A stretch of DNA of 64,000 nt, from positions 16,753,312 to 16,817,311 of the forward strand of contig NC_092675.1 in the NCBI RefSeq assembly GCF_964355755.1, in the 5' to 3' direction. The notes under the pieces were generated by a model. The model was given only the letters and a program-made list of their open reading frames with translations, had not been told where the DNA came from and ran no database searches. Source of the stretch: Antedon mediterranea. Taxonomy: Eukaryota; Echinodermata; Crinoidea; Comatulida; Antedonidae. Below, one piece after another: positions 7,401 through 46,800 of this stretch (position 1 is the stretch's first letter; each line of letters starts with the position of its first letter). Made by a program: the position numbers and the translations under genes.

Positions 7401-10400
7401 AAGGCAAAACAAACTGCAATAAACATTTTGAAGGCTGATTGAAGGAAAGATGGTCAAATGATAAAGATTTGATCATATGATAACAATTATCTGTCATTTG
7501 TACCTTTTTTGAGGCATGAAATATATGCAAACAACCAAATTTGTGCAAACATGGCACACCCAAATGTGCAATTCTGTAAAAATGTATAATCCACTAATGT
7601 GCCAACATCTTCAAATGTAAAAATGTTCAGGGCTCAACATACCTCAATATGATCTGGTACCCATTGAATATCTGCAACGGCTGTCTTGTGGCTATGTTCA
7701 ATAGCTGATACTGCACAATAACGAATAATAGGAGTTTTATCTGAATTTTCATCTTCAAAACCAGGCTACAAAATTATAAAAGTAATGATTATTAAAAATG
7801 TGTGTCTTAATTTTATCCATTTGAAAATCAAATCAGTGTGGTGCTGGGAAAATCCTCCCAACAATCCACTCACTAAACTTTAAAAGCCTACAATATGAGA
7901 CCATATGTTTGTAACTGTTTATAGTTTTCTTTTATAACAATACTTGTTTTAAGCCTCTATTAAATTCTAACTTTCTTGTAATCTGATGACCTACAGATTG
8001 GATGCAGGCTCTGATCTATACCTATCTCCATTTCGTATTTATTTACATTCTGTCTGCACTAATTGTTTCCCAAATAAAATAAATTATTTACCAAACTAGT
8101 CATCGTGTTCTTTTTGGGTTGCTTGCCTCGCTGACTGTTCTTGAGACGTTCTACATGCTTTGATATATCCCACATGACAACCTGACCATTTATACAACCT
8201 CCAGTAATCACATTCGGGTCAGATGGATTGAATTTGAAACAGAAAATGTCATCTGGAGCTTCCAATAAAATCTAGAAAACGAGTGAGTAATACAATGGTT
8301 AATTTATTGAATTGAATTTTATATTTATATTTATACTGGGTAACCTCTTCAGTCAAAGACTGGTCTCCCTGAGGGCCCAGTTGGTGATCAGTGGCTATGA
8401 TGTACTAATACACCGGGGTAACCCCCTACTCGTCTCGAAACATGTACTAGGTTCTTTAAAGTGCACACAAGCTAGATGTGTACACTGGACCTACGGTTTA
8501 TAGTCCTTATCCGAGAAGACTCGTTCTGCCACCAGAACCATGGAGTGAGTGAGATGTGATCATCTCTATGTATTCACCACAAACTTTCAAATACAAACTT
8601 TCCACATACCAGTTCAATTTGTGAAACAACAGGGTACACTATAAGTTTCTGTAATAGTATAAACTCAGAAAAGAGTGAGGCAAGCCATTAGGATTCCTAA
8701 ATTTCGAATTTAATTTGTTCATCTTGAACAGATAAAACTGATGAACAAATAAAGTGCCAAGATCAAGTCAGCTGCGATGAGGGTCAGGGCAGATACATTC
8801 AAGTATACCAACTATCTATTTATTATTGATAAAAATGGAGGATTGCTCACACCCGTTAAATAACGAATATGTAGTTAAAAAACCCGAATTAAAATGCAAT
8901 ACTACTCGATGTAGGAAATCATTTGTCCACAACTTAACACATGTCTCCGACTCAACATTTCAAAGATTATTATGTATTTTATCCCTCTAGTAACTATGTA
9001 ATTTTTATATAACTATTGTATTGATTTTTATTACTGCTATATTTTCTGTATAGTGTGTGTAATTAAGCATCAAGGAAAACAAATTTCATGTTTGTCTTGT
9101 TGTGGTCATGACAATCAAGATTTATCTTATCTTATTCTCTTTGATAAAACGTTTATTTTAAAGTGCACATAATGCTTTCTTTCTACAATTACCTGTGGGT
9201 GGATGGGATCACTAAAGCTCCAGATGAGGATTAATGAGGGCGCCATAAGCACCTTTGATGCATTATCGATACGTTCATCAAACAGCATTCTCTCGGCGCA
9301 TGCCACAGCTATCACACCTTTGAATGTTGGATGCCATTCAACTGATGTAATAGTCTTTTCTTTGCTGAACTGCATATCTGTAAAAGACTGGTATTCCTAA
9401 GAAAAAACAAAAATGCAACATTTAGTGATTGTTTCCTGCAGACTCAAGACTCCAACTTTGGCAAGAACAGTTTTCTAGAAAGTTTGCTAGTTTGCTGAGA
9501 AGGTAGGCTGTGCACCTTCTTGACAAACTAGTTTGCTGAGAAGGTAGGCTGTGCACCTTCTTGACAAACTAGTTTGCTGAGAAGGTAGGCTGTGCACCTT
9601 CTTGACAAACTAGTTTGCTGAGAAGGTAGGCTGTGCACCTTCTTGACAAACTAGTTTGCTGAGAAGGTAGGCTGTGCACCTTCTTGACAAACTAGTTTGC
9701 TGAGAAGGTAGGCTGTGCACCTTCTTGACAAGCTAGTTTGCTGAGAAGGTAGGCTGTGCACCTTCTTGACAAACTAGTTTGCTGAGAAGGTAGGCTGTGC
9801 ACCTTATTGACAAACTAGTTTGCTGAGAAGGTAGGCTGTGCACCTTCTTGACAAACTAGTTTGCTGAGAAGGTAGGCTGTGCACCTTCTTGACAAACTAG
9901 TTTGCTGAGAAGGTAGGCTGTGCACCTTCTTGACAAACTAGTTTGCTGAGAAGGTAGGCTGTGCACCTTATTGACAAACTAGTTTGCTGAGAAGGTAGGC
10001 TGTGCACCTTCTTGACAAACTAGTTTGCTGAGAAGGTAGGCTGTGCACCTTATTGACAAACTAGTTTGCTGAGAAGGTAGGCTGTGCACCTTATTGACAA
10101 ACTAGTTTGCTGAGAAGATAGGCTGTGCACCTTCTTGACAAACTAGTTTGCTGAGAAGGTAGGCTGTGCACCTTCTTGACAAACTAGTTTGCTGAGAAGG
10201 TATAGGCTGTGCACCTTATTGACAAACTAGTTTGCTGATAAGGTAGGCTGTGCATCTTCTTGACAAACTAGTTTGCTGAGAAGGTAGGCTGTGCATCTTC
10301 TTGACAAACTAGTTTGCTGAGAAGGTAGGCTGTGCACCTTATTGACAAACTAGTTTGCTGAGAAGGTATAGGCTGTGCACCTTCTTGACAAACTAGTTTG

Positions 10401-13400
10401 CTGAGAAGGCAGGCTGTGCACCTTCTGGATAAACTAGTTTGCTGAGAAGGTAGACTGTGCACCTTCTTGACAAACTAGTTTGCTGAGAAGGTAGGCTGTG
10501 CACCTTCTTGATAAACTAGTTTGCTGAGAGCTGTGCATCTTCTTGAAAAACTAGTTTGCTGAGAAGGTAGGCTGTGCACCTTCTTGACAAACTAGTTTGC
10601 TGAGAAGGTAGGCTGTGCACCTTATTGATAAATTAGTTTGCTGAGAAGGTAGGCTGTGCACCTTCTTGATAAACTAGTTTGCTGAGAAGGTAGGCTGTGC
10701 ACCTTATTGACAAACTAGTTTGCTGAGAAGGTAGGCTGTGCACCTTCTTGATAAACTAGTTTGCTGAGAAGGTAGGCTGTGCATCTTCTTGACAAACTAG
10801 TTTGCTGAGAAGGTAGGCTGTGCACCTTCTTGATAAACTAGTTTGCTGATAGCTGTGCATCTTCTTGAAAAACTAGTTTGCTGAGAAGGTAGGCTGTGCA
10901 CCTTCTTGACAAACTAGTTTGCTGAGAAGGTATAGGCTGTGCACCTTATTGACAAACTAGTTTGCTGAGAAGGTAGGCTGTGCATCTTCTTGACAAACTA
11001 GTTTGCTGAGAAGGTAGGCTGTGCACTTTCTTGACAAACTAGTTTGCTGCAGTTCAAAAACTTAATGAATCAAATAACAGCCATAGCTATGGAATTTGAA
11101 ATGGACGAACACTAACTTTCAAATGATTATCAGACTTGCTTCCAAACGAGCTGTCTTCATCGGCCAATGCTGTCCAGTCATCATAAAACACATCCATAAT
11201 CTCATTTTGCTGTAGTGCCAATTGAAATCTAAATATAAACATCCATGGCAGACAAATGATTTAGGAAGGTTCCATTGAATCAAAGGTAACATGATTGAGT
11301 GATGTGAAATTTAAATTTCTAGGCCAATGTTGCAACAACCTATTTTCCAGATGATTGTTGGTCTATGTTTCACAAATTTAATCAGCAGCTACTGAACAAA
11401 GCAAGCAGACTACTTACCTAGGAGTTGTATTCTCTATAAAATTCTTTAACTGTTGTGATTGCAGATGCTTGTTCTTTTCTTCTTCATTAAATTCTCTTGG
11501 TGCATATTGGGTAGACTTGTTACACGGATGTTTCCTGACAGCCAACAAATATAATAGAGAACTTATTCTAATATATCATACATCGGGAGAGGTTAGGCAA
11601 AGAGTTTTAGATACAGGAATAACAGAGTGACCAGGAGAATATTTTTTAAAAATGATTTGGTCCCTAACTTTTATTCAAAATAAATTAGGTTAATAGTTTA
11701 ATTTCTGTTGAATACAACATATTACATGTGTCCATTGATTAATTTTATAATTAAAAAAATATGCATTTTGCTTTAATATCACATAATTAAGCCTTGTCTA
11801 CACTATACAACTGTAATGTACCCATATATAGACATGATAATGACATATCATTACCATGTTTGGGCATATCACTTCCACACTTTTTTGTCAAACTAGTTTG
11901 ATAGTGTAGACAGAGCTTTATATATTATTGCCAATGTAATATAAGAAACTTAAATATGCTATTTTAGAATACTGTACTGTACATTTACCATTCAGTTTGA
12001 GATCCATTATCTGTTGTTTCACTAATCGCTTGAACAGATTTATTTAGTTCCATTCTCTTGACACTAAAGTTCTTGTCTTCATAAGCTACACATTCAATGT
12101 AACCATCCTTAGCATCATCAGGACCTCTGTCAGAGAATTGAACTGGTGCTCCAAATTCATGACGTACACGCTTAAGAGTGAAAGATATCTAAAAGAAATA
12201 GGAGATAAATCAGATGATGGAGATGATTACAGAAATTATAAGAAATAGTAGGAATCTGGTTATCAACATTTGAAGAGAAGAGGTAATAATATACACAATA
12301 AAAGAATGGTCGTAATATTTTCCAATTTTAGTTTTTTTGTCTACCTTTTTTCGTGTTTCTTCAATTGACTCCTCTTTAATTTCTTTTTCACTGCCCTGTG
12401 AGACCCATTCCTTAGGTTCTGGTGGCACATATGTGTAAACTGTTAAATCAACCTCTTCTTCCTCTGCTTGTCGTTGTCCTTCTTCCCTCTCTCCATCTTC
12501 ACCTTCAACCTGTTCTGCTGTCGGTGGCTATGAAAACAAAACACACATGCATTGACTTTAATAAATTACAAAAATAACATGTTGAAAGTTTGTGAAATTT
12601 GAATTTGATACAGTACATACTGTCCATATAGGGTTTGTTTACTAACCAAACTAATATACTGTCAAATCTCATCTTTTTTTTTCCAATTTTGAATTGCCTT
12701 TAGTATATACAGTATACTATATATATATAAACACAAGAGGCAAAGAACATTAATTCTAAACCGCCCGGTGATATACTGAAATTTAATTAATTAATTTGAA
12801 ACGATAAAGATGAGGAAATCTGTGAGAATGAGAAAAAGTCGCCCCAACCGCCTGCTTGATATGCAGATGTCCTAACCATTAGACCACTGGGGCTTTCATG
12901 GTATTGTTCGAACTCGATTGGATAACGACTCTTTAACATTCTCGGCGTGGTACGGCGGAACAGCACTAGTCCTCAGTTGTACGCACGCGCAACAGAGATC
13001 AAATTGATACGCCCTCATCTTTCAGTATTTTTATTCATGAGGCGGGATCTCCGAAGAGATACTTTTATATATATAAACACAAGAGGCAAAGAACCTTAAT
13101 TCTAAACCGCCCGTTGATATACTGAAATTTAATTAATTAATTTGAAACGATAAATATATATACAGTATACTGTATATTATACTATACTATGTAAATACTG
13201 TATATATACTGTATATATGTAAACTGTATATCTTTGATATTAACTTTCTTTTTTTCCAGTCCGTTACGCTAAAGGCAGCCCTTGTCTTTTTTTATATTCT
13301 CAACTTTGTCTAAGTAATCTCACTTATGTTGCCCAAAAGCGCTGCAAATTTTTCTGGCTGATTTACTTTATTGTATTGTTTTAGCTTTTTGCTTATTTTA

Positions 13401-18140: not shown

Positions 18141-19006
18141 CTTTTAATTTTTTTTATGTGCTATTTCCTTTTATTTAAACTAGTACTAGTGTATACTTTT
18201 CTCATTTACATTTTTTATACACTTTTCAGATGCATACTTATAAAGATACGTTATTATAAGCTATTTAATATTTGACTAATTATTAAAAGTCAACCATACA
18301 CTTGCACAAGCATTACTGAGCAGGCCTATTTTAAATCCTTGCGACAGAAACATGTGCAAAATGAATAAAGTATGATTTATTTTAAACTTGCATTATTGTC
18401 TTTATTCAATCAGTGTCAACTTTATATACATGATAAATAAAAAAACAAAGCAAGTAAACAATTTTTTTTCTGGAAATATTGTTATTAATTATTACATTTT
18501 AATTGAGCAACACAGAAAAATATTAACTATATTGAAAACAATGTTTACACAGCACATAGTTTCTACAGCATAAATTTGAAGAGATTGTCAAGAATAGGTA
18601 GAGCATGTTTTTTTCTTAGAAGTTACAAAAAGGAGACAAAAAATGGAAAAGTTAATTAATAAGATGGAAAAACTAGCATAATCACATTTGATTATTAAGC
18701 TTAAGAAAACCCTGTTGACGCATTTTAGTGCAGAAAATTCAACTAATTAATAAATCTTGTCCTTTTTGTAATATGTACTAGAAATGCAAGATCAATTTAT
18801 TTATTCATTGTACAGTTAGCCCTTTGATCAGCAACACAAGAAATCATTATGTACTAATTTCAAAATAATTTATATTTTAGTTGTGTCACTATACAAAAGC
18901 TTTACAGTATACAAAATAGTATATATATAATTGTCAATTTGTCTTACAGAAATGAATTACTCTAAAATTTGTATCTCAAAAAGTCATTCTTAAATTTAAT
19001 GTATGA
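18141..19006. other. AT-rich spacer without a recognised gene
   Basis: Only short, AT-rich open frames (e.g. 18388-18573, Lys/Asn/Ile-rich) with no domain. Nothing else supported. Confidence 0.5.
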
Positions 19007-19195
19007 TTAAAGGAATGCAGTATTATTTCTTTTAAAATGTGTAGCATTGTAGATATAATTCATATAAAACGAAGTGCGGTAAAATTTGTTTGAAATTTAT
19101 TGTTGTTTAGAGTAAAATCGATTTTGAAGTGTAGATTTTTAAAAAAAACCGCGGATTCTCTATGAGCCGCCATGTTTAACACGAAACCGAGGTTG

Positions 19196-19267
19196 TGACG
19201 TCATTGGTTTGACAGAGAAAATCATCCAACTGTGAGACTGCCCGTAGAGCGTGGATGCCTATATATA
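19196..19267 (+). promoter_or_regulatory. CRE and TATA-like elements upstream of the ballast-domain ORF
   Basis: Palindrome TGACGTCA at 19196-19203 and TATATATA at 19260-19267, the latter only 18 nt before the ATG. The order CRE then TATA then ORF looks like a compact promoter inside the transposon. Motif match only. Confidence 0.35.
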
Positions 19268-19284
19268 CACAGAGCTAAATTAAG

Positions 19285-19822
19285 ATGAATCACGGATTAC
19301 AACCTTACCAATTAGAACCCAGAAGAAGAAGAAGAAGAGATGTGGAGGAAATAGAAGGTTTATATAATATTGTCGCACATGAAGGAGAAGATATAGAATG
19401 GAGGAAAGTAAACAAGGAGGAATGGTGCCAATGCAGACGGTGTGAGTTGATGGACACTCTGTGGAATGCCTTTGTTGTCGGGAAATTGAAAATGTACGAG
19501 CGAAGATGAACATAGGATCAGAAAACGAAATGGCATGCATTTTAGACCATTTTGAATTCGAATTTGTATGTTTACATCCTGCAGTAATTAGAACTGAACT
19601 TGTTGCCCAGACAGACATTAGGCGAGACAGCATCGTTGACCCGATCCCGAACGAAACATTTCGCCTTCAGGCGTACAGGCAGTTCACCTACTGTACTGCT
19701 GGGTGCATGACCGCCTCGGTAAAGCCGTACGACGAGTCATCCCAGCCTGCGTCGTAAACAAAATCAGAAAGGACTTTCCTAGCATTGATGGAAATTATGT
19801 TGGATTTAAAGAAGTCGAATAA
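19285..19822 (+). pseudogene. P2X7-receptor-like cytoplasmic 'ballast' (Zn-Cys) domain ORF, two frameshifts
   Basis: A stand-alone copy of the cysteine-rich intracellular domain that forms the C-terminus of vertebrate P2X7. There is no channel part and no membrane segment. The ORF starts MNHGLQPYQL with an Arg-rich stretch. Family hallmarks follow in order: WCQCRRC (frame of 19285), ECLCCREIE and CLHPAVIRT, AYRQFTYC (second frame), then RRVIPACVVNKIRKDFPS and GNYVGF (third frame), with a stop at 19820-19822. Human P2X7 ends with a closely similar RKEFP...GQY.GF pattern. Frame breaks fall near 19458 and 19690. Each is a single-base event, so either a young pseudogene or sequencing error is possible. 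In P2X7 the domain binds zinc and guanine nucleotide; whether this one does is unknown. It lies inside a Kolobok element and converges on its transposase. Confidence 0.8.
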
Positions 19823-20500
19823 ATCATAAATGATATCAAGATGTTAAATCATAACATTTAAATATCGAATGCATCAAATAATAACATTTTTTATAGCTAG
19901 GCTATGCCTACCTACCTAGGCCTAGTTAGGCTAAATAAAAGCCATTTCCTTGATTATAAATTTTGTAATAGACATTATTTAGTATACTGTAACAAAAAAG
20001 AAGGGCGATTTGTTTTAATTCACTTAACAAGGGTATGTAAATAAAAATTAAAAGCAACAAACAGTAACAAGTGTTTTCTGTTTATTATTTGTATGCAAGC
20101 ATTGTATTAAAAGCTGTTCCAAAACAGGGAAGAATCAAATCCAATCAATATGTAGTCATTATCTGGCCGGCCAAATGTGTGAAATATAATTAGACGTATT
20201 TTGCAGAAAGTTACTGAGCGTCATCTTACAGCAATTGCACAACAACACAATAATTATTATAATAAACATTTTTGCATCGGTAAAATTAGTTTATTCACTA
20301 TTTTCAGAGAATTTCCTTTAATGCCTTTTTTTTATTAATTCAACCAAAAACTATACACTAATAATTGCATCAAGAAAATATTTAAGAAATAGTATTTATA
20401 ATAATATAATATGTAAGGTTTCATCTTTAGCAGTTTAAAAAGATTTTTTTACAAAACAAAATAAGCATAAATTAGCTTTGTTGGTTTTAATGTAAACACA

Positions 20501-22129
20501 CTATGAAAGCAGAAACCTAGTTCTAAAATCTTCAATCGCATCTTCTTTCTCTGGTTTCTCAGAAGAAGCAATGTTTGTTGGAAGATCTGGTCTGTCTACA
20601 TAACGTTGACCTAGAACTATAGCGCTATCTTCACGTCGGTCACACACCATTTCCATCAGTCTCTTTCTAAATTCGAAGGTTTTGTCTACATAAATTTTCT
20701 TCAATACCCACTGCTTCTTGCGTTTGGGAAATGCCAGTCCAAATCGAAGAGTGCCTGTTAGGAAATGCACATAATTATTCCTCATTGTAAATATGTCTTT
20801 ATAGATTACTAATCAACAAATTAAAGAAGCTCTTATAAAACTACTTACCTTCCTCAGTAGTTGCTTGCTGTCTACCAACATTCTCATTGTGGTCCATAAT
20901 TGCCAATTGATGACGGGCTCTCATGCCTTCATAGCTGAAGCGTTCCCTCTTTGGACAATATTTTAACAACATCCCATGAAAAACCTGTAGCGATCCTGTA
21001 AGAAGATTAATTTTATTATAAAAATTGTTATATTATAGTGTTTATTATTGTATGTTAAAGAATGTAGTTAGTATAACAGGGCTTCTTTTGCCTTTAATTT
21101 ATTCGAATGATCCCACAGCAAAAATAGTACATTTCATATATCTTTTTACATACATACCTGTGTGTTTAAAAAGTGTCATCTTGTGCATATCTTTTAGTAA
21201 TTTAGTGTTCATAACAACACCCCGAAGTGCATCATGAGCATCGCTACCTGGTGTCAGCCATTCAATTTCATGCATGTCCTCCAATAGTGGGTTGTGACTG
21301 CACTTGTGGAATTTATCTGCACTAGCCCATTCATGGATGTTGCAGACGTGCTGTAGTAAAGAAAGCCACTTGTCCTTAAGGTCCTAAAATTCTGCATTCT
21401 CACTTTCCACTAAGTTCTCCAAGTTGATGGTCTTAAAAATAAAATAAGTACTAGGCTATATAAATAAACTAAAGATTTATATAACAAATTTAAATTGAGA
21501 TAAATGTGTAGGCCTACACTTTTTTTGCCTAGGCCCTAGGCCTAGTCTTGTTGTGTTTGGCCGTTCACCTCGGTAACCTACTTTCCTTGGCCTACTAGCT
21601 AGAGTAGTAGTAGTAGCCTACTATTTTAGTATTACAGTACTAACTAGGCCTAGCCTCTACTATCCTAGTCTAGCTAGCCTAGGAGCCTCTCACTCAATGT
21701 ATGGCCGAACATCAAAAAGCAGAATTTGGTATGTTACGTACCTTGTTTTTGGTCTTGGGCCATCGCTTTTGTGTCAGTAGTTTTTGTCGTTCCTGTCTTT
21801 GTTGGCTTGCTTGGCTAACCGCTTTACTGAAAACAAACTGTTTAGGTACAGCATTTGGCTTCAACCGCCTGGTAGGCCTAGACGTCGCACCAACAATACT
21901 GACTTTTTACGGAGTCATCCTCAAACATTTCTTTTTCAAAATGGTCACTACATACTCTGGAATAAATATTAATGTGCGGTTTTTCCAACTTCATGGCTGC
22001 AACCCAGTTCTTTAGCAAATCCTTATTGTTTAACGGCAATCGATGGAAACTAACATTGCGTATTCCTTTGGACTTCCTGCCTTTCTTATCCGATGCATTG
22101 CTGCATCCAAACGCCATACAAAACACCAT
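20501..22129 (-). pseudogene. THAP-domain Kolobok-like transposase, internally deleted and disrupted
   Basis: Pieces on the minus strand: 22129-21742, 21431-21158, 20995-20849 and 20754-20501, joined by GT-AG sites in agreeing phase. Exon 1 is a THAP C2CH DNA-binding domain: MVFCMAFGCSN, FHRLP, CSDHF, and after a one-base shift near 21900, RRLKPNAVP. Later exons match the C-terminal part of Kolobok-type transposases: WLSLLQHVCNIHE, WLTPGSDAHDAL, LLKDMHKM, HTGSLQVFHGMLLKYCPKR, FSYEGMRAR, QQATTEEG and LAFPKRKKQ. An in-frame TAG lies near 21385. The central DDE region is absent: only a 310-bp intron separates THAP from the C-terminus. So it is a relic, or at most a DNA-binding fragment able to bind the termini. 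Stop at 20501-20503. Confidence 0.8.
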
Positions 22130-22905
22130 TTTGTACTATTTTTTTTGTTTTGATAAATCACCAATAACTTCCAAGATAATTACAAACACAAATGAAATAG
22201 AGAAAGAATCTATACTACTCGAAAAAATCAATTTAATTAGGATAAACAAATCGTTGTTGTTTTCGATATTACAGCTAAACGCATACGAAACACATGTGCA
22301 CACAGTGCTACACAATTAAAAATACCCGGATGAAGGTACTTCCGTCCCACCAGCTCCCGCGGCTTCTGGGTAATATTTAAAAATGGTGGAACTCCATTGG
22401 CGACAACATTAATTGGCTTATAATTCAGAATGTGTAAATATATTAATATTTTTTATGACTTTATTTAACTCTTTGATATATAATTAATACATAGTATGTC
22501 GAAAATTAACTAATTCAGTATTCCTTTAATTAATGGATGTGCAATAATACACACTCATGCCAGTGGCAAACGTGTAAATACAATAAACCAATCTCTGGTA
22601 TTTTTTCATGATATAAAAAGTACTGTACATACTAAACATCAAGTTTACTATTATACTCCGCAGTGCAAAAGAAAGAATATGGTCTCAGCTGTAATTAGCA
22701 TGCATTTTTTATTATCATAAACCCTACATGGTGATAAAGAGCTTTAACTAGTATGACCCCCTGTATGGGTGCCCCGATGGGTGCTTTTAAAAAAATTCAA
22801 ATCAAAATAAATATTTTTGTTTTGTTTAATATACACCTCACAAGCACATGGTTTGCAATCTGTTAGCTTTTCCATGTAATATTATACAAATAATAAATGT
22901 TTGAG

Positions 22906-23010
22906 TGGAATAGTACAATAATGGCACGAGGTGAATGATGAAAGGCTATATATAGTAAAATATAACCTTTCATCAATCGCCGAATGACATTATTTATACC
23001 ATTCCACGAA
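22906..23010. repeat. About 105-bp imperfect palindrome
   Basis: TGGAATAGTACAATAATGGCA and GATGAAAGGCTATAT on the left are mirrored by ATATAACCTTTCATC and TGACATTATTTATACCATTCCA on the right. Foldback MITE-like; lies between the Kolobok element and ASF1. Confidence 0.6.
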
Positions 23011-23767: not shown

Positions 23768-26700
23768 TCAATGCTGCATTGCATTAACATACTCTGGTAA
23801 ACTGCTGTTGCTATCAGCACTTATATCATGATTTAATTTTTCCATTATTACATCAGCAGCGGTTGTGGCTACTTGCGAATTCATTTGGGAGTTTGATGAG
23901 GAAGACGACTGTTGGTTGTCAGATGGTGGTGGGACGTTTTCACTGTCTGGGTTCTGTTCCCAGTCAATGGTAAATCTTGTAACTCTTGGGTTTGTCTCTA
24001 GAATGTTCCGAAGAATCTATAAACAAAAGTAAAAGTAACATAATTTATAACTTATTATCTAGTGAGGCCTTGTGCTGTGGTAATAATAAAACAGTACCAC
24101 TTCATGCCTTTAAATTATAAAAATTAATGCTGTTTGACAGGATCACATTTAGGCTTCACTAAGGATACATAAAAAAATTTCCTGTTTCAAAAAGTATATT
24201 ATTAATATTGTTGTGACGATAATCAGGTGTCGCATGCAAATGAATCAAGTCTCCTGTGGTCAAGTGGACGAATCAGAAGGGAGCGCGGTATTTTGGAAAG
24301 CTGTGTTGGGTATGTGAGACAAGAGAAAGACTCACTCACGAGACGGTACGGTAAGTCAGAGATGGTAGGCTTTCTGGATAAAAGATAAGACAGTGGATAT
24401 GGGACTGCCGACTGTAATAATGGAATAAAGACTTGCAGTGAACTGTGTTTCGAGACTGGAAGCGAGGCAGGACGCAAGGACAATAAGAATGGAAAAGTTG
24501 TGATTGAATGTACGGACGCCTAGGCAAACCAACCACTCGGTATCATTCGTATTGTTGTAGCATTATAGTTTTTTTGTTATGTAATGAATCGTGCAAGAAA
24601 ATTAAATGGAGCTCGTGCTTCTTGCATAGTACTTTGAGTGTTTGTTTGTTCCAAACCTCGTTGTTGTTATTTAGGTATTTCGGCCTAGGCTAAAAGTGGT
24701 CGTAACAATATTATTGGTTATTCACACTTGGCGGATAATCCCTTGTTATTGTCAGGATCTTTTTTTCTTTTCCTATTCTTCTTTCTTTCCACGAAATTTG
24801 TTCGCAGCATACAGTATCTCTATTTCTTGTCAACATCAGATTGAACTCTATATGTAGTTGTGCAAGAAACTTTGTTATATGAATTTAATTTCGCCTATTT
24901 AACATAGATCGAAAACCATATAACAATTTAAATTGAAATTTAGCAAAAGTGTAATTTATAAAAAATGTTCTTCCAGCCTTTTCTAGTAATTTTACCAACT
25001 TTCAAACAATTTCGACTTAAAATCATGTCATACAAGCACATCAAATTAGACAATTTGCATGCGTTTTGTGAAAATGATGACTTTTTTTATGATGACTTTT
25101 TTTAAATAGTCATAGATTCTAAATTACATAGTGAACTTTTTTTTAACTACATATTCTTGAAGTTGATATGTTATAGATCATAAATCAATATGGCTAACCG
25201 GACATTGTGACGTCATTGTATGGTCACTCAAATATAAAATTTGTGTCTCTTTCGTCATAGCTCACATTTAATAGAGCGCATCTCCACTTATCCGTATTCC
25301 ATTTTCCCCCATATTTTTATATTGTCTAGGTCAATCAATTATCTTTCGCATGATTTACCATTTTAAAATTGTGATGACGTCATCATGTGCAAAAGCGGGA
25401 ATAACTTTGGTCACTTATTTTCAACATTCCAATAAATTTCAATATGTTATAGCTCCTCAGAATGAACAGTGATACTCATGATTAAAACGTTTTCTGGAAG
25501 CTGTTGAATTGTAGATACAAATTCATGTACAAATTATGCACATCGGATGGTGTGACGTCATCATATGGCCAGTTGAATTATAAAAGTCGTATTTTCATAT
25601 TTTGCGTCATAGTTTATGACATTTAAAATAGCGCGCTTCCATATTAGACTGGCAGCCCAGAGACATTTGGTTAGATGAGCTAGGTACCAATATCTGACTA
25701 TTTGAGTGTGTTGCGGGTCACTTGAAGTCAATGAAAATGGGAGTCTGCCGGGTACCCCCTGCTGCGTCTAGACCGGGGGGACCCCGAAACGTGCTAAAAA
25801 ATCGGCCCAGGTTAGATGAGAGAGATACCACCTAATTTTACCACCATGGGATGCCCATTGGCATCCTTATACCAGTATCACAAACGACAGACTTTTTCTC
25901 TGCTGCAAAAGGCCCGCCAGACCCCCTGAGGGAGGGCCTAAAATGGGGTTAGCATAGATGAGTGAGGTACCACTCAAAATTAATTCCAAATGAAGAAGTT
26001 GTGTTCATACAATACTAAATGGATAACAACAGACTGATTGTCTGCTGCACCGCAAGTGCCAGACACCCTAAAGTTAGACTAGAGGCCCCCCTTCCCCCAA
26101 CTAGCCCAGCTTAGATATTGTAGATACCACCAGCAACCAATGTTATATGATTTAGCACATTGTAAGCAATACCAAATGACCTATTACAGACTATCTGTAC
26201 ACTGCCCTGGCCCTGGCAGACCCCTCTAAAGTTAGACTGGAGACCCCTCTTTCCCCAACTAGCCTAGCTTAGATATTGTAGATACCACCAGCAACCAATG
26301 TATATGATTTAGCACATTGTAAGAAATACCAAATGACCTTATTACAGACTATCTGTACACTGCCTTGGCCCTGGCAGACCTCTCTAAAGTTAGACTAGAG
26401 ACCCCCCCCCCCTATCCCCACCTATCCCCAACTTAGATATTGTATATACCGCCAGCAACCAATGTTATATGATTTAGCACATTGTAAACAATATCAAATG
26501 ACCTATTACAGACTATCTGTACACTGCCTTGGCCCTGGCAGACCCCTCTAAAGTTCGACTAGAGACCCCATTTACCCCAAGTATGGCCTACCTTAGATAT
26601 TGTAGATACCTCCAGCAGCAAAAAAAAACACCCAAAACAACATGTTTAATTGAATAAAGTTTAACTTTAATCGAACTAACACAAAACAATTGAAAATATA

Positions 26701-29700
26701 TCACATCAATGACGATAAAATGACCATTACCATTCTAAAGGGAAAAATAGTTTAAGAGTTTCAATTATTATATATTATAAGCCAAATATATATAAGTATG
26801 GATTCGGGTAAATTTAGCATTCCTTGCCTTTGGATGTCAAAGATACATCCGTCTGTAACTCTTGGACATATTTTAAGAGAAAGCTTAGTAATCACCCTAA
26901 TAAAATTCATGATTGTAGTAACTTAATCTAAAGTGATTTGATTAAATAATAGTGGGTAATTTTAAATGCTGTATATTATAATCTTAATCCTGTATTCATA
27001 TTTATATATATATATATATTTATATAGATGCGTTGAGGCTGCAAACGTGCTCAATTTGAATCAAGAGCGAATATATATTTTTATAAAGTAGATGGAACAC
27101 GGACGTTTATTCCAGATAGACTGAACAATACCGTATCTCGATCGAAAAAAATATTTTAAAACAAAAATTATAAATATATATAATTTTAATTTATTTTTAT
27201 GTACTTTATTTATGTAGATATGTAGTACTGTATCTATTAAAAAAAGGTATTTGAACAAAATTAGAGATCTCAATGAGATCCAAATTGGCAATTGCCGCAA
27301 AATCCTCACTGAGTTTGACGTTGAAATTCACTCTAGAACTAAGAAGTTGAAAAGAGAACTTCCTGCATCCTAGTTTTAAAAAAAACTCAGGATTATCGCC
27401 AATGACTACTGTCGTAAACAATCAACGGTAATGGCCCGAAGGGAACATCACAAATTTGGTCTACCTGCAGACTTGGTCATTTCAACACAAATGACTCTAC
27501 CTTCGGATGACTTCAGGGCTTTTAGGAAACCCTGCAGTAGGTTCGTTGGGACTTATAACAAGAATCAGAGCAACACCTCTGATTCAGTTGTTGAAATTAA
27601 TTGTTGACTTTCCGAAGGAGAGAAAAAACTTCTTTCCCGAGGACTTAAATTCTGCCCAAAACCAAGGCAGGTCGGCGCACAACAACTATCTTTGGATATA
27701 GAGTCTTCCTCTAGAATATTGCGATTACGTGAATATTTTGCTGATTCAGACAGCAGCACCACGCAAAACGAAGGCAACATTAACAAATTTAAACCAAAAA
27801 GTTCCTGGAATCCACCTAAAAATCGTTCAAAACTACGTCCCGAGTCCAGATAAATGTGACAATCTCTCAAAACAAGAGAGGCAGGCCATTGCCAAATTGC
27901 GTCAGCTATCATCATTAAACCCGCTGATAAAGGTTCTGCCACTGTTGCTATGGACATCAAATTTTATTAAGAGGAATCCTTCAGACAGCTTCATTATATA
28001 TCGTAAACTCACAACGGAACCCACCCCGGAAATTGTGGATAAGGTGGCCAAATCTGTTTCTGTGATGGTAAAAAAACACTCCATCGATCCTAAGATTTAC
28101 AGTTACCAAATCCACTAGTAGCGTTGATTTTATGGACACTATAGTGACCATAGAAAATGGTACTCTCAAAACTGACCTATTCCGTAAACCCACTGATAAA
28201 AATATGTACCTGCTCCCTAGCAGTTGTCATCCCCAACACTGTACTAAAAACATACCGAACAGTAAAGCATTACGTATCAGAGACGTATCTGTTCTTCAGA
28301 TTTAGATTTTCAGAATTGTACCGAAGAACTAATCGGACATCTCCGGAATAGAAATTACAAGAAGGAATACACCGAAACTACTATAAAGAAAGCAAAAGAT
28401 ATTCCTCGATGTCAAACACTGACGTACAAACCACGTCAGCAAAGTTCGACCAGAGTGCCATTGGTCACAACCTATCACCCTAGGTTGCCTCCATTACGGG
28501 CTATTAATTTATTGAGAAACATATGCCCATTCTACAGTCCACAGAACGTCTCAGGACTGTTTTTCCGGAACCATCCATTATTGCATTTCGTAGACCTCCC
28601 AACCTTCGTGATATATTAGTCAGATCCAAATTTAAGAGTGAAATTAACTCTCATGACAGTCAAAATTTGGGCAGTCACCTTTTACGGCAAATCTTGCAAA
28701 ACTTGTTCATTGGTTGATTCTACTGAAAAATTTAAGAGTAACCAAACTGGCCGCATTTTTCGGATAAGACAATCAATTAATTGTCTAACCAAAAACGTCA
28801 TTTATCTCATATACTGTAATATTTGTGGCAAACAGTACGTCGGAGAAACAAAATACACTCTCCGTATGAGAATGACACAACACAGATCAGCTATCAAAAC
28901 ATTAAAGCTTGATCAACCTCTAGCCGAACATTTTAATTCAGCTGGTCACTCGATTGCAAATTTCAGAAGGAAAACCACTGGGAATTACAACTTAAAACCA
29001 CAAAACCTTTTGTACTTAACATTAGAACATACTCCCAGGTTGGTAAAATTATTCCATTGTCTACCAAAATTTAAGTTTCAATATTAACCACCATTTAAGC
29101 TGTTTTTTAGTTTCATTCCAAAATGGTTTATACTGTATCTCTACCAAGCTACCTTCTTTGTTTTCTACTCTTATTCAGACTCCACCCTGTCTCCTTTTGT
29201 TGTATTTCTTTTATTCCTGTCCACCCAGGCAGCACTTGCCAGTTCTTATCCTTCACTTGCAATGATGAAGGGCTAGTGTTGCCCGAAAGCTCTGCAAACG
29301 TTTCTGGCTGTTTTACTTTATCCTTTTGATTTAGCTTTTCACTTTTTTTTTGTATCTTCATTGAGATTCACCCACTGATACCCACAGCATTGTCATTTTT
29401 TCAGTTATTTGCCTTTGGATTTATATATATAAATATATATAGAGGATTAAGATTATAATATACAGCATTTAAAATTACCAACTATTAATTAATCAAATCA
29501 CTTTTGATTAAGTTACTACAATCCTGAATTTGATTAAGGTGATTACTAAGCTTTCTCTTAAAAATAGGTCGCAAGCGTTACAGACGAATGTATCTTTGAC
29601 ATTCAAAGGCAAGGAATTCCAGATTCTCACAATTCTAGCAGGAATGCTAAATTTACCAGAATCCGTACTTATTTATATTTGGCTTATATAAGTTTTAACT

Positions 29701-32700
29701 ATTTTTCCCTTTAAAATGGTAATTTTATCGTCATTGATGTGATATATTTTCAATTGTTTTGTGTTAGTTCGATTAAAGTTAAACTTTATTCAATTAAATG
29801 TTTTAGGTGTTTTTTTTTTTGCTGCTGGTGGTATCTACAATATCTAAGCTAGGCCATACTTGGGGTAAATGGGGTCTTTAGTCGAACTTTAGAGGGGTCT
29901 GCCAGGGCCAAGGCAGTGTACAGATAGTCTGTAATAGGTCATTTGGTATTGCTTACAATGTGCTAAATCATATAACATTGGTTGCTGGTGGTATCTACAA
30001 TATCTAAGCTGGGATAGTTGGGGAAAGGGGGGTCTCTAGTCGAACTTTAGAGGGGTCTGCCAGGGCCAAGGCAGTGTACAGATAGTCTGTAATAGGTCAT
30101 TTGGTATTGCTTACAATGTGCTAAATCATATAACATTGGTTGCTGGTGGTATCTACAATATCTAAGCTGGGCTAGTTGGGGGAAGGGGGATCTCTAGTCT
30201 AACTTTAGGGTGTCTGGCACTTGCGGTGCAGCAGACAATTAGTCTGTTGTTATCCATTTAGTATTGTATGAACACAACTTGTTCATTTGGAATTAATTTT
30301 GAGTGGTACCTCACTCATCTATGCTAACCCCTTTTTAGGCCTTCCCTCGGGGGGTCTGGCGGGCCTTTTGCAGCAGAGAAAAAGTCTGTCGTTTGTGATA
30401 CTGGTATAAGGATGCCAATCGGCATCCCATGGTGGTAAAATTAGGTGGTATCTCTCTCATCTAACCTGGGCCGATTTTTTAGCACGTTTCGGGGTCCCCC
30501 CGGTCTAGACGCAGCAGGGGGTACCCGGCAGACTCCCATTTTCATTGACTTCAAGTGACCCCCAACACACTTAAATAGTCAGATATTGGTACCTAGCTCA
30601 TCTAACCAAATGTCTCTGGGCTGCCGGTCTATATTCTACGTATCCAAATTTCTTCAACACATTGATATGTTGTTGCTCAGATAATATTCCTTCCAAAATT
30701 GCTATCTACGTGTTTCTTTTTGATGACGTCATTAAAAGATTAAAAGATGGGTCTCGTAATTTCATCTATGCTACACTGTATATAACATATACAGTGTATT
30801 TTGTAAATGTGTTATAACACCACAATCATATAGGTACAATTCAGCACTGTAAACATATGTAATTCATGCCATAGGATGGCATGATAATTGTCGACGTTCA
30901 TATAGTTTAACGTGTGTGCATGTTGCGTGTCCGCGGATAACCCGACTCGTCAAAGTGACGAGTTCAAATCTAGTTGTCTTCTGTAATTGTACAAAAAACA
31001 CCAGGGAACATAATTATTTTTCTTCATGAAAGGTTAGGGATATTCTGATCTTGCTTCTAAAAACATGTCATTTCAAAATGTGTGTTGTGCTGTTACTAGT
31101 GCCACTGTTAAAATGAATCATTAAAATACAAAGCCACTACAATAAACCAAAATACATTAAGGAGCTACAACTTGATTTTCTAGTAAACACACTATAACTT
31201 ACCTTATCATACTGTGGTACTGGGGGTGGAGATTCATTCATTTCCTGGTCTGAATATTCATTATTGACATAATAACCGACTCGTACAAACTCTTGACCAC
31301 GATATGAGCATGTGACAAGTGTGACAGTGACACCTAGTAGGTCAGCAATTGGAATTTTATCAATTTTAGGTGCGTTTGCCTGTAAAAGTAACATAATGAT
31401 TAAAAATTGTACGGTTTTATCATTATTATTTTTTTTTATAATATTCTATTTTAATGGAGTTTCTGTAACCACATATTTACAGTGGTAGTCCAGTCAAAAA
31501 TCACCCTCACCATGGTATAAGAACGTACCCTAATAAAATTTCATCCGTAGGTTCTATGTATATAGGTAATAACATTTCTTGATGTTGCGTCTTGCAAAAC
31601 TTGGGATTTTACGAGAAAATTTGACTTTTATACCCAATTTATAACTACCTCATGTCGTATTATTGTGTACAGCGAATGCGACGAAGCGTGACTGAAATTA
31701 CGAGACGCCGTTTGCGCCCGTTGAAAAATGCATTAACAAAGCTAAAAACCTACAAAATTACCGTAGTTCCCCGGGTATAATCCCACCCCCCTTGTACGTG
31801 AAATTTGCCCGAATTTGGGAGGTGGGACTATACCCGGGGATTTCCCGCTGCATGAACTGAAAATGACGATATTTCTTCTGTCTACGATTTTGCTATCTAA
31901 AAGCTATATTCCGATGTAGGCCTAGCAATTAGACGGCCAGGCCATCTAGGCCTAGGCGGCCTAATTGGTCTTACCTGTGCTATGCCTACCGTATAGATTT
32001 TCCCCAAGATTTCTACTTAAAAAATACCCTAAAATGTGATCTAGGCCTAGCTTCCTAAATCGACATGAACTCGATCATACGAGTTCTCCACGTTCACCCA
32101 CACGCTCGAGCTCTCTGTGTAAATCGCATGTTGTTGCATGTGACACAAACTCTACTGCACAAGCCGATCGGTATAGAGGGCGGTGTTTTTTTTACGGTAA
32201 TCAAGCGTCAAGAAAGAATGTACACGACACGGCGAAAGGATGTACAGAACGTGACGATTGGAGCATGCTTGTATTCAACTTAACAATGTTTGATGAGTTT
32301 TAAGTCAGCCAAATTCAGAGAAATTACTCTATTTTTTGGGTGAGAAATTGACGTCGGCCTAGCTAGCTACAGTAGGCCTAGGCCCACCTATGGCCTAATG
32401 TTAAATTATACACTGGGACTTTGCCCGGGGATATGCTTGCGTGCGAAGGTAATCGTAAAGTCGGGGGTGGGATTATACCCGAGGTGGGATTATACCCGAG
32501 GAACTATGGTAATAGTTTATACAATAATTTAAATATAGTTTACAATAAATTGTATAATAAAATACATAACATATAAAGAAAACTCAAGTATAATCTCAAA
32601 TATTTACAGATATGTGTTTAAAAATGTACAAATCAAAATGGCCTTCCATAAAATAAAGTGCGCCCTCACTCGTCATACTTTTATCGGACTTGTATGGATG

Positions 32701-40842: not shown

Positions 40843-43800
40843 ATGGAACCATCATTTACATTTTCGTGTTCACTCGTTGGTCATGAGGGAGATGTTCGTG
40901 CAATTTCTGCCGGTACTCATCCTTCTGAATCAAGTATTCTTACGGCTTCCCGCGACCGGACATCCCGGCTATGGGTGAAGTCAAGGTATGTCCGCCTAAG
41001 CCTAGGTCTACGTAGTACACGTCTACAGCGCCTACTACTATGACTGAAATACTCATTTGAAACATTGGATTAGGCCTAGGCTAGGCAGTAGTGATAGATG
41101 TTTGTTAATAAAATAATTTAATAATTTATAAAAAATGTATTTGTTATATATGCATGTTGTAACGACGCCTTTGGCGTGCCATAATTGTTCTCTCTCTTCT
41201 CTGAATAAATGTTGAGTTGTACACGCTGTGTTTAGAGCCCTTACTTTACATTATAATCTACTATATACAACATAAATTTTGGCGACGAGGATGAGCATGG
41301 CAGTTATAATAGGAAAGGTGGAAGAATTTGATTCATCTTTAGAAGCTTGGGATTCGTATACCGAACGGTTAGATCAATATTTTGTAGCCAACAAGGTCGA
41401 TGATGATCGGAAGGTACCGGCATTGCTTGCACTCATCGGACCGAAAACGTACACGCTACTAAAGAATTTGTGTTCACCGGAGAAACCAGCGACACTGTCT
41501 TACGCAGATTTAATTACAAAGCTCACGACACATCTTTGCCCAAAGCCATCGGAAATCGCGGAACGATTTTGGTTCTACAAAAGAGAACAGCATAGCGGGG
41601 AAAGCATTGCTTCATACATTGCTGAACTACGAAGGTTAGCCATTCATTGCAATTTCGGAAACACTTTGACCTCGACACTGCGAGACATTTTCGTCTGCGG
41701 GTTGCGTCAAGAGAACATTCAGAAACGTTTACTGGTGGTTCATGACCTTAAATTAGATGATGCAATTAAAACCGCTGTAGCTATGGAAACAGCAAGTCGT
41801 GATGCTACAGAATTTCAAAAAACAAGGACACCAAATACTACAGGTGAGAGCAATGTAAATAAGTTTACTACAAAAAATTACCAATCTAAAAGACACCAAG
41901 GTCATAAACAAAGTAAAGCATCTACACACTGTTACAGATGTGGTAATACAGGCCATAAAGCTGATCGCTGCAGGCACATACATACTGTTTGCAATTACTG
42001 TTCCAAGGAAGGACATCTAGAAAAAGTATGCATGAAGAAAAAGAAAGACAATAATGTGTCAAAGCCTAACACTGGTAACCTTAAAAAGAATGTACAGTAT
42101 GTACAGGGAGAGGAAGTCAACTATGAACCTATGCTATATGCAAATCATAAGTCAAAAGTGGAGCCAATTATAGTGGTTGCATCTATAAATGGAAAGAAAA
42201 TCCCTATGGAATTGGACACTGGATCATCAGTATCACTGATTCCAGAGTTGACCTACAAGAAAGCATTCCAGTCGTTACCATTACAGAAAACTACAATTAG
42301 GTTGAAAACATATTCTGGTGAGACTATTGTACCAATAGGCATGCTAAATACTAAAGTGTGTCTTAACAATCATGAAGAAATTGCAGAGTTATTGGTCGTT
42401 CCATTGAACGGACCAGCCTTATTCGGACGTGATTGGCTAAAGAAGTTTAAATTAGATTGGCATGAAATAAAAGCCATTGATGAGGCAAAAGCAACAACTA
42501 AAGGTCTGGATGAAATTTTAGAAAAACATAAAGCTGTTTTTAAAGATGAATTGGGGAAACTGGAGAATATTAAAGCTAGTATCTACATCACTGAAAACAG
42601 CAAACCACAGTTCCACAAGCCAAGAAATGTCCCATATTCAATGAGGGACAAGGTCGAAAAAGAGCTTGGACGACTACAAAATCAAGAGATTATTAGCCCT
42701 GTGAAATACAGCGAATGGGCAGCTCCCATTGTACCTGTACAGAAGAAGTCAGGGCAAGTTAGAATCTGTGGTGACTTTAAAGTTACAATTAATCCTGTGA
42801 TGAAAGTAGAACAGTACCCATTACCTAAAATAGAAGATATCTTTGCATCTCTAGCAGGAGGTCAGAAATTTACAAAAATTGACCTTAAACAAGCATATTT
42901 ACAGATGGAAGTGGAAGACACTTCAAAGGAACTGTTAACTATTAATACGCATAAAGGGTTATTTAGATATAACCGACTTCCATTTGGTGTAGCCTCAGCT
43001 CCTGCAATCTGGCAAAGAGCGATGGACCAGGTACTGCAAAATGTACCCTTTACATCTTGCATATTGGATGATATGATCATCAGCGGAAAAACAACTGAGG
43101 AACACTTAAAAAACTTGGACACAGTTTTAGAGAGATTAGAGAAATACAACTTAAGAGTAAATCGTGAGAAATGTGAGTTTTTCAAAGAAGACATCACATA
43201 CTGTGGTCATGTGATAACTGAAAAAGGGTTACAGAAATCCCCTGACAAGATACATGCAGTTATCAATGCGCCAAAACCTGACAACAAACAGCAAATGCGA
43301 TCATTCTTGGGTTTGATAAATTACTATCGTAGGTTTTTGCCAAACTTATCGTCCATAGTCGCACCCCTGAATGAACTCTTACAAAATGAAAAAACTTGGA
43401 AATGGACAAATTCATGTGATGAAGCTTTTAAAGCGGTCAAAGAACTTATAACTTCAGACCAAGTTCTATGCCACTATAATCCTGAACTAACAGTTAAACT
43501 AGCCTGTGATGCATTGCCATACGGCCTTGGTAGCGTTCTTTCACATATTATGCCAGATGGAAAGGAAAGACCAATTGCATTTGCTTCTCGCTCCTTAACA
43601 AAAGCTGAAAAGGGCTATGCCCAAATAGATAAGGAAGCATTAGGACTTTATTGGGGAATACAAAAGTTTCATACTTACCTGCATGGCCGACATTTTACTT
43701 TGGTTACAGATCATAAGCCGCTAGTAAGCATCTTGCATCCACAAAAGTCAATTCCAGCAATGACTGCTGCAAGACTACAAAGATATGCCCTTTACCTATC

Positions 43801-46800
43801 TGGACATACATATGATATCGAATATCGCAACACGCACGCTCATGGGAATGCTGATGGATTGAGTAGATTGCCTATACCTACAGATGTGATTGATTACGTC
43901 GATGAGGCATCTACATTCTACACCTCCCAGATTGAAAGGTTGCCGATATCAAGTACAGAAATACGGAAAGAAACACAGAAAGATCAGATTCTGTCACATG
44001 TATTAGATACTGTTTTAAAAGGGACTAACAAACTTCCTGACAAAGAAGCGTACACACCCTACAAGCGCCGTCTTACAGAACTTACTTGCCATCAAGGGTG
44101 TTTAATGTGGGGAAATCGAGTACTAATTCCAGATAGACTTCGTGCTGCTATTCTTAATGAAATACATGATGGACACATTGGGATTGTTAAGATGAAAAAC
44201 TTAGCTCGCTCTTACATCTGGTGGCCTAACATTGATTGCGAAATTGAACAAGTTTGTAAATCTTGTATCGGTTGCCAGCAAACAAGCAAAATGCCAAAAT
44301 CCGCACCAGTACACCCTTGGGAGTGGCCATCTGCCCCATGGGATCGCTTACATATAGATTTTGCAGGGCCATTCATGAACTCTATGTTTTTAATTGTTGT
44401 TGACGCCCATAGCAAATGGCCAGAAGTTTATCCAATGAGATCTACTACAGCACAACTGACTATTGAGAAATTGCGAATTATGTTTAGCCAATATGGTATT
44501 CCCAGACAAATTGTATCGGACAACGGTCCTCAATTTAAGTCGGAGGAATTTACAGATTTCATGAAAGCAAATGGTATTCGACATACCACATCATCCCCAT
44601 ATCACCCCAGAACAAATGGCCTAGCAGAGAGATTTGTGCAAACGTTTAAATTGGCCATTAAGCAAGCAAGAGGAAACAGTTGTCGTTCATTACAGCAACA
44701 TCTGAGTACATTTCTGTTTAAGTACAGAACAACTCCTCATACACTTACCAAGGAAACACCTGCAAAATTACTCTACGGACGCAATCTACGAACGCGTTTG
44801 GATCTTTTGAAACCGGATCTAACAGCTACTGTCTTGAAAGGTCAAGATCGTATGAAGTTTGCAAAACATTGTGGAACCAGTATCCGAGAGTTTCAACCCG
44901 GACAATCAGTAATGGTCCGTGATTATCGTAACACAAACCAGAAATGGATACCAGCTCAAATACAAGGAAAAACTGGTCCACTATCTTACACAGTTGACAC
45001 AGGACTTGGAACAGTATGGAGGCGTCATGCTGATCAACTACACCCAACTATGGTGAATGTCACTCCTACAGAAATATTCACCCAGGATGACCATGTTCCA
45101 GAAATACTAAATCCAACAGACGCTCCACAATCAGATAACCTTACTCGAAATGTTAACGCCGACACACCTGTTACAACTGGCAGCGCATCTCTTACACAAG
45201 AAACTGCACCCATACGTCGATATCCAAAAAGAAATAATATTCGCCCACCAAAGAGACTAGACTTGTAAATAGACATGAAACAAGAAGTTGATTTTAGTTG
45301 AACTTTATTATTCATTATTGCATTGAAAGATATTATACAGAAAACTTTGATTGAAACATTATAATTACGAATGATTACAGAACAGTACAGAACTCTAGAA
45401 TCTAGTCTTTACTATTCTTAAAATGGTAGGGAGGATGTGTTATATATGCATGTTGTAACGACGCCTTTGGCGTGCCATAATTGTTCTCTCTCTTCTCTGA
45501 ATAAATGTTGAGTTGTACACGCTGTGTTTAGAGCCCTTACTTTACATTATAATCTACTATATACAACAGTATTAATTTCTTTTAAATATTAATTATTATT
45601 ATTATTAATATTATAGTAATAGTATTATTATAATATTAATTTAATTATTTATAGATAGACAAGTAACATAGCCTTTTAAATAAGCCTAACATATAATTTA
45701 ATTAACGATGATCGATTGACACTCTTTCTCTTTTTATTGTTATCTTTAATAATATAGCCTAAATAATATTACAAAAATAACTGCCCATAAAACATAAAAT
45801 CACTACCATTTGGTTGAGTACACTACAACCACTTCTACAATACAAAACATTTCTTCTTATTTAATTTTTTATCCAAAATGGATAAAATTGCTAATATATT
45901 AATAATAGTTAATACAATATTTTAATTTGTTTCTTTTTCAGTGAGGGAGCCTCATACTTTGAAGGACTGAGTATGAGAGGTCATGAGAATTTTGTAAGCT
46001 CCCTTTGTGTACTACCGCCATCGGACAAGTACCCAACCGGCCTTATTATGACAGGTAGCAATGATTACAATATCAATGCTTATACATTGGACAGTGTTCT
46101 ACCAGTATATACACTTAAAGGCCATGTTAACACAGGTAAACAAGTTTATGGGTTTTGTTTCTTGTTGTGCATATTACTTGCAGGGCCTCCTTAATATCTT
46201 GAAAACCGCTACTAAAAAGTTTACATTTACATTGTTTAAGAAGAATTCGATCCAACTTGGCCCTAAACCGTCTCGGCCAAAGTCAAGTCGGCTCCTAGTC
46301 AAGTCGGCCCCACGTCAACTCGGCCTTAATTCAACTAGGCCTCAAGTCAACTCGGCCTCACATCAACTCGGCCAAAAACTAATCTGTCAACTCAGCCCCA
46401 ATAAAGTATGGAACGCAAAAAGCAAAGCGAAATGACAAAATAATAATATAATTTTAAATATATTATTTTTTATAAACATTTTTATTTTACTGTAATCTAA
46501 TAATTATCTATCTATATCTAAGAATATTTTGATTCATTCTGGGAAAATTCTTGTATGTATCAAAATAAGCTATATAGGCCTAGGCCTACATAGCAAACAC
46601 ATACTGAGACTAAACAATTACATCACAACTAATAATATTTAAATAAATACTACCTATCAATTAAACAAAAAACAACCAAGTGTGTTATAATTTATTTTGA
46701 ATTTTCCGTTTTATTTTGTCTAGGCCTATGTGTAGGCCTAACCTTATTAATCCTGCCATTATAATATTAACTATTAGCACTTTTTGCGTTCTATACTTTA

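Follow-up and report, generated by a model that had tools for sequence, protein, structure and literature searches.

Can the ballast domain of the P2X7 receptor travel as a gene of a transposon? The question is raised by positions 19011-22525 of a 64,000-nucleotide stretch of DNA from the crinoid Antedon mediterranea (the window, whose numbering is used for the element), which corresponds to C6:16753312-16817311 of the species' assembly G000 (18 contigs, 354,431,138 bases). A preliminary description of this DNA had proposed that a Kolobok-type transposon here combines the relic of a THAP-containing transposase with a convergent open reading frame (ORF) for a P2X7-type ballast domain, the protein termed KolX below, and that such an element would give a route for the fusion that made P2X7. 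The data presented here indicate that the window copy is very probably a dead, non-autonomous, hybrid Kolobok of the Kol0 kind, whose complete relatives in A. mediterranea carry a transposase gene and, convergent with it, KolX. Published work is cited from parts of three papers, Kojima & Bao 2022 (PMC9587614), Rump et al. 2020 (PMC7016195) and a study of Xenopus elements (PMC6004289).

Complete copies pair KolX with a Kolobok transposase

Five full copies of the closest family (family 1) are present in the same assembly, L021-L025 on contigs C3, C5, C7, C8 and C9. Four are 5307 bases long and one 5313; each has TTAA at its start and end, the flanks are unlike, and the copies differ from one another by 0-9 substitutions. 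All five encode in full (178/178 residues) P0001, the protein closest to the window's ballast ORF, which is annotated as 'P2X purinoceptor 7-like [Antedon mediterranea]', and on the opposite strand tblastn pieces span residues 1-741 of P0009, the A. mediterranea transposase (741 aa) closest to the remains in the window. Both genes are kept between the same termini in 5/5 copies, and the concern that other copies might lack the ballast ORF was not borne out. P0009, pieces of which lie in L021-L025, contains GDGRSD, TTDRH, DIFH and HTGSLEVFH, which we take, chiefly from their conservation, to be the catalytic motifs. By these motifs the closest full copies possess the DDE core and a C/DxxH motif, the latter a rule for Kolobok transposases (PMC9587614).

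The pairing extends well beyond family 1. At least 70 matches to the ballast family (E≤0.001) were found in the assembly, a lower bound as the window's own ballast copy is absent from the list, whereas 0/14 control genomes contained a match; the loci are fewer than the matches because the latter are exons. Twenty-three loci were fetched. For 20, namely three members of a 44.8-bit group and 17 of the top-scoring 18 matches, the surrounding 10 kb was taken, and for the other three, from weaker groups, 4 kb. Convergent Kolobok transposase sequence lies on the opposite strand at 22/23 of these loci, 16 identified in a first comparison, three (L035-L037) with the last exon only, and three in a further comparison. 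DDE-core sequence is present at 17/23 loci, while five (L029, L035-L037 and L044) have THAP or end exons only. By our own grouping the fetched loci represent about nine families: family 1 (L021-L025), family 2 (L029), A (L026-L028), D (L030), E (L031-L034), F/I (L035-L037 and L043), G (L038-L040), H (L042) and J (L044). KolX is conserved between families. TTAA and purine ends were observed in 3/3 copies of family G, two of which are 99.98% identical over 4745 columns, in 3/4 copies of family E (L031 is cut short), and in family F at both sides of L035 and L036 and at one side of L037. Because full copies, TTAA ends and recurrent pairing all hold, the view that the ballast domain travels inside the transposon as an accessory gene is supported.

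The family F copies L035 and L036 are about 3.1 kb long, with ends TTAAAGATCATGGAACATGG. In this family the ballast exon is kept without a stop and the transposase is reduced to its last exon; 14/15 of the listed matches of the family F kind (106-184 or 109-184) are without an internal stop. L043, which has a transposase core, appears to be a more complete relative. Among viral contigs, 45 pattern matches yielded no relatives of the element.

The window copy is a broken hybrid

The 3515-base stretch 19011-22525 lies exactly between two TTAA sites, at 19007-19010 and 22526-22529, the left one at the place that matches TTAA in the five full copies and in two further hybrid copies described below. 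TTAA therefore borders the window element, 5/5 family 1 copies and 2/2 other hybrid copies, and the terminal match noted in the preliminary description holds at other loci. The inverted ends are of the AGGAAT type, the left being that of family 1 (AGGAATGCAGTATTATTTCTTTTAAA, 19011-19036, plus strand) and the right that of a second family (22503-22525, minus strand). They are imperfect, as previously described, with 19/23 alignment columns matching when the TTAA letters are counted in. Both the window element and family 1 display AG..CT, the 5'-RR..YY-3' termini of Kolobok. A degenerate 14-base end motif occurs with zero mismatches at just the two element ends in the whole window.

The KolX pseudogene occupies 19285-19822 on the plus strand, distributed over three frames. 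When read through, 171/176 residues are identical to P0001 and the Pfam P2RX7_C score is 58.1 bits (X at frame changes; cut-off 23.5 bits), while frame by frame the last frame scores 29.9 bits, the first 14.4, below the cut-off, and the middle none. Thus, the convergent P2X7-type sequence that had been described is present but no single frame holds the domain, and the P2X7 motifs quoted for it, although all there, are scattered over the three frames. P0001 has all seven cysteines of the P2X7-type ballast, which are zinc ligands in P2X7, and so does the window copy when its three frames are combined. KolX is predicted to adopt the P2X7-type ballast fold, as expected for the second gene of a Kol0 element.

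On the minus strand, exons delineated by eye from their splice sites match the end part of Kolobok-type transposases. These comprise the last exon (20501-20754), an exon starting with HTGSLQVFH (20850-20995), both with edges approximate and set by eye, and an exon running from DLKDKW to LFKHTG with a stop just upstream (21159-21388, edges approximate). Further upstream are a THAP exon and linker (21742-22129, edges approximate) with a frameshift near 21900. The THAP domain itself (21878-22135, minus strand) scores 51.3 bits (cut-off 23.9), which agrees with the THAP-containing transposase relic reported before. The C-terminal part is identical to P0009 at 203/208 residues and the THAP part at 69/94. 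Residues equivalent to P0009 125-533 are missing and the glutamate of HTGSLEVFH is replaced by glutamine, so that the window copy lacks the DDE catalytic core and is a non-autonomous deletion derivative. Both of its genes are broken.

The two sides of the element have different affinities. Over the first 2383 bases from the TTAA, identity to family 1 is 96.4%, with 10 gap runs and, among 2358 aligned bases, 31 substitutions. The remainder is 91-97% identical to L029 and matches family 1 in parts, at only about 70-74%; the left end is family 1's, the right end is not. The junction lies at 21388/21389, with family-1-like sequence to its left and second-family-like (L029) sequence to its right. 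A second genome search (32 matches) revealed two more copies with both halves, L045 (C7:19714359-19718484) and L046 (C8:10789886-10794002), each with TTAA at both ends, the window element's two termini and unlike flanks (about 40-66 flanking bases per side compared). The C7 copy is 99.9% identical to the window copy over 1354 columns, 99.7% over 1143 and 97.9% over 898; it shares the window's second KolX break, is without bases 887-1029 of the window element, and has at the join about 735 extra bases that the window copy lacks. No transposase residues of about 125-453 were seen in the C7 or C8 hybrid copies.

As two further copies share both halves, the hybrid structure marks a non-autonomous subfamily, of which three copies were found, that of the window included. 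A single recombination event had been considered as the origin of the window copy and was dropped when the other two hybrids came to light. That 'one-off' explanation, in which recombination or an assembly join produced something other than a transposing unit, draws on the sharp join and on halves that match two different families; the recurrence of the same halves, ends and TTAA on other contigs, in unlike flanks, makes it highly improbable, unless these copies are segmental duplicates. The window copy appears to have lost more sequence at the join after the hybrid subfamily moved.

Proposed mechanism and alternative explanations

Kolobok THAP-DDE transposases cut and paste the element at TTAA. 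In complete relatives the gene for this enzyme is convergent with that for KolX, a small seven-cysteine protein with the predicted ballast fold. KolX may be a structural cofactor of transposition that is built around zinc and helps, for instance, to assemble or deliver the transposase complex, a role that, judged from sequence, is a serious but tentative possibility. The hybrid would derive its left end and ballast side from one family and its THAP side and right end from another. We infer that the subfamily spread after its genes were broken and therefore moved in trans, most likely with an intact family, L021-L025 for instance, mobilizing it; the window copy would afterwards have lost further transposase core.

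A number of observations weigh against parts of this interpretation. The loci were selected through KolX (P2RX7_C) matches, so the counts concern KolX-bearing elements only. L031, 1/23 loci, is a KolX locus with no transposase sequence, and a search for the termini of families A and D in the fetched loci found none. The KolX of non-autonomous family F displays no purifying selection, the pooled ratio of non-synonymous to synonymous change (pN/pS) being 1.22 (six copies, few changes), and in two family A copies that were compared only one of four KolX changes is silent. The splicing of P0009 is an NCBI prediction, and the cofactor role of KolX is deduced from the company it keeps and from its conservation. 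Finally, taken alone the ends carry little weight, as at ≤2 mismatches the end motif gives 9 matches in the window against a chance mean of 9.25; since this is chance level, the case for the element rests on its other copies.

The conservation of KolX and its pairing with the transposase would fit equally well if the protein were a repressor that limits transposition, kept because over-active elements harm the host. The numerous non-autonomous copies with an open KolX in one group (14/15 listed matches) are in keeping with such a function, while the lack of purifying selection on the family F exon is not. The present evidence does not separate helper from repressor; we consider repression unlikely. 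An ordinary animal gene captured once by one Kolobok, and lying outside its machinery, is a far less probable origin of the ballast gene. It is true that stand-alone ballast proteins are widespread in animals and have been taken as host genes (PMC7016195), and that the window's ballast ORF is broken. This view is, however, already largely refuted by the convergent Kolobok pairing at 22/23 loci over about nine groups (our own grouping), by the conservation of KolX between families and by the published pairing in Kol0 elements of other animals (PMC9587614). A piggyBac-type element with a KolX-like protein would share the TTAA target, and a KolX-like end has been reported for a few piggyBac families (PMC9587614). 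Such an identity can practically be dismissed: the ends are purine-purine (AG..CT) rather than of the CC type, the transposase exons match Kolobok-type THAP transposases, the full family 1 copies have a Kolobok-type enzyme, and all seven cysteines are present, most of which the piggyBac versions lack (PMC9587614). Consistent with this, no piggyBac match was found when eight ORFs and two joined proteins of the window were scanned.

Relationship of KolX to the P2X7 ballast

The preferred reading, of KolX as an accessory gene of Kol0 elements, leads to the question of which KolX most resembles P2X7. Families D, A and E contain the motif PSCCxWxIR, where other KolX proteins have PACVVxxIR or similar. 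Among 41 sequences compared, the combination of a CC-x3-P-x2-C loop with the PSCCxWxIR helix occurs only in mammalian P2X7, D and A; a lungfish protein, P0070, shares the loop but not the helix. A profile built from three mammalian P2X7 ballasts ranked D (68.5 bits), A (64.4) and E (62.2) above all others in a set of 103 KolX-like sequences that included many fragments; P0001 reached 34.8. Trees group P2X7 with two amphioxus proteins and families D, A and E, with support of 90/88 in one, for which family A lacked its first exon, and 77/84 in another. With the C-terminal half of the profile A and E ranked first of 58, followed by L029, with P0001 tenth (D was dropped by the length filter). These data suggest, tentatively, that P2X7 has closer KolX counterparts than that of the window's own family.

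Several results temper the D/A/E lead. The branches joining P2X7 to these families are long, and in the approximately unbiased (AU) test, for which both groups were named after the first tree was seen, P2X7 beside the window's family was not rejected (p 0.147) and the P2X7+A+D grouping was not shown (p 0.382). With the N-terminal half of the profile the sea-urchin proteins P0058, P0057 and P0054 were among the first four of 41 sequences, A being fifth, E seventh and D eleventh. In A, D and E KolX is split into segments, suggestive of introns, while the P2X7 ballast lies in one exon (PMC7016195). It should also be noted that D, A and E come from a direct genome search; because other animals were sampled by word search only, similar KolX proteins elsewhere may be missed. 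The proposal that the ballast donor of P2X7 was a Kol0 sublineage surviving as families D, A and perhaps E in this crinoid is therefore possible but rather doubtful. Of the suggested route to P2X7, the travel of the domain as a transposon accessory gene stands; we infer, beyond this, that a transposon supplied the receptor's ballast domain.

Other features of the window

Elsewhere in the window, a 1330-aa open frame without internal stop (41276-45268, plus strand) contains aspartyl protease, reverse transcriptase, RNase H and integrase in that order, and appears to be a polyprotein of the long terminal repeat retrotransposon type. A GIY-YIG domain (28620-29087, plus strand; 23.6 bits, cut-off 22.6) is part of a fragment resembling a Penelope-type element, and lies between tandem arrays of 158-bp units (26060-26617 and 29823-30216) that by eye are in opposite orientation. 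WD40 and PUL domains are encoded on plus-strand exons at 47719-48111 and 52719-53315, which we take to be part of the host gene PLAA. Two further tandem arrays consist of a 41-bp unit repeated 38.3 times (9487-11049, 94% matches) and a 22-bp unit repeated 25 times (49280-49829, 99% matches), the latter open in three minus-strand frames.

Comparison with known systems

KolX and the P2X7 ballast (exon 13) share the fold, predicted here, the seven cysteines and the Pfam P2RX7_C domain. In contrast to P2X7, KolX is without the P2X channel part, and P0001 keeps 2/5 of the residues that contact the guanine nucleotide, GDP, in the receptor (the R546 and R578 equivalents; residue list from PMC7016195). 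Stand-alone ballast/ZCD and Nanor-like proteins (PMC7016195) comprise the same domain and are likewise short and channel-free, but were taken as host genes with ancestral synteny, whereas here the domain resides in transposons. The same paper reports two conserved markers that neighbour ballast genes across invertebrates, and Ixodes ballast proteins whose N terminus carries a TolA or 'TAHP' domain; the word start 'transpos' is absent from its main text. The two markers might be the transposase itself.

Within the Kolobok superfamily, KolobokP also targets TTAA and occurs in animals that include echinoderms, but is distinguished by long terminal direct repeats and a His-Me finger nuclease (PMC9587614); the longest direct repeat found at 18501-23000 is 23 nt. 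The XKol elements of Xenopus resemble the A. mediterranea elements in TTAA target, AG ends and a THAP and DDE transposase, and differ in that the paper describing them makes no mention of KolX (0 occurrences; PMC6004289).

The closest system is Kol0 Kolobok (Kolobok-1_XT), which has a transposase and a KolX with seven cysteines, TTAA and RR..YY ends. Its KolX was described as similar to human P2X7 476-595, with the ballast fold; P2X7 was attributed to fusion of a P2X4-like gene with KolX, and Nanor was viewed as likely a domesticated KolX (PMC9587614). The idea of a transposon-borne ballast domain, the P2X7 fusion included, has thus been in print since 2022. Hydractinia has two Kolobok-like transposases and a KolX counterpart for each, P0014/P0066 and P0030/P0065; within either pair the longest contigs are equal in length (32043467 and 39956072 bases), consistent with co-location. 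The Kol0 hosts given in PMC9587614 are vertebrates, annelids, cnidarians and sponges, whereas the host here is a crinoid, and the window copy differs from those elements in being broken and of a hybrid, non-autonomous subfamily. The gain over the 2022 publication is in detail: new here are the crinoid host with several KolX families, the hybrid elements and the tentative P2X7 lead. Near-identical full copies, together with the locus counts, within one genome bear out that the ballast of a drug-target receptor is an accessory protein of transposons. With its several KolX families this crinoid lends itself to study of the protein's function, and it may harbour the nearest living relative of the P2X7 donor.
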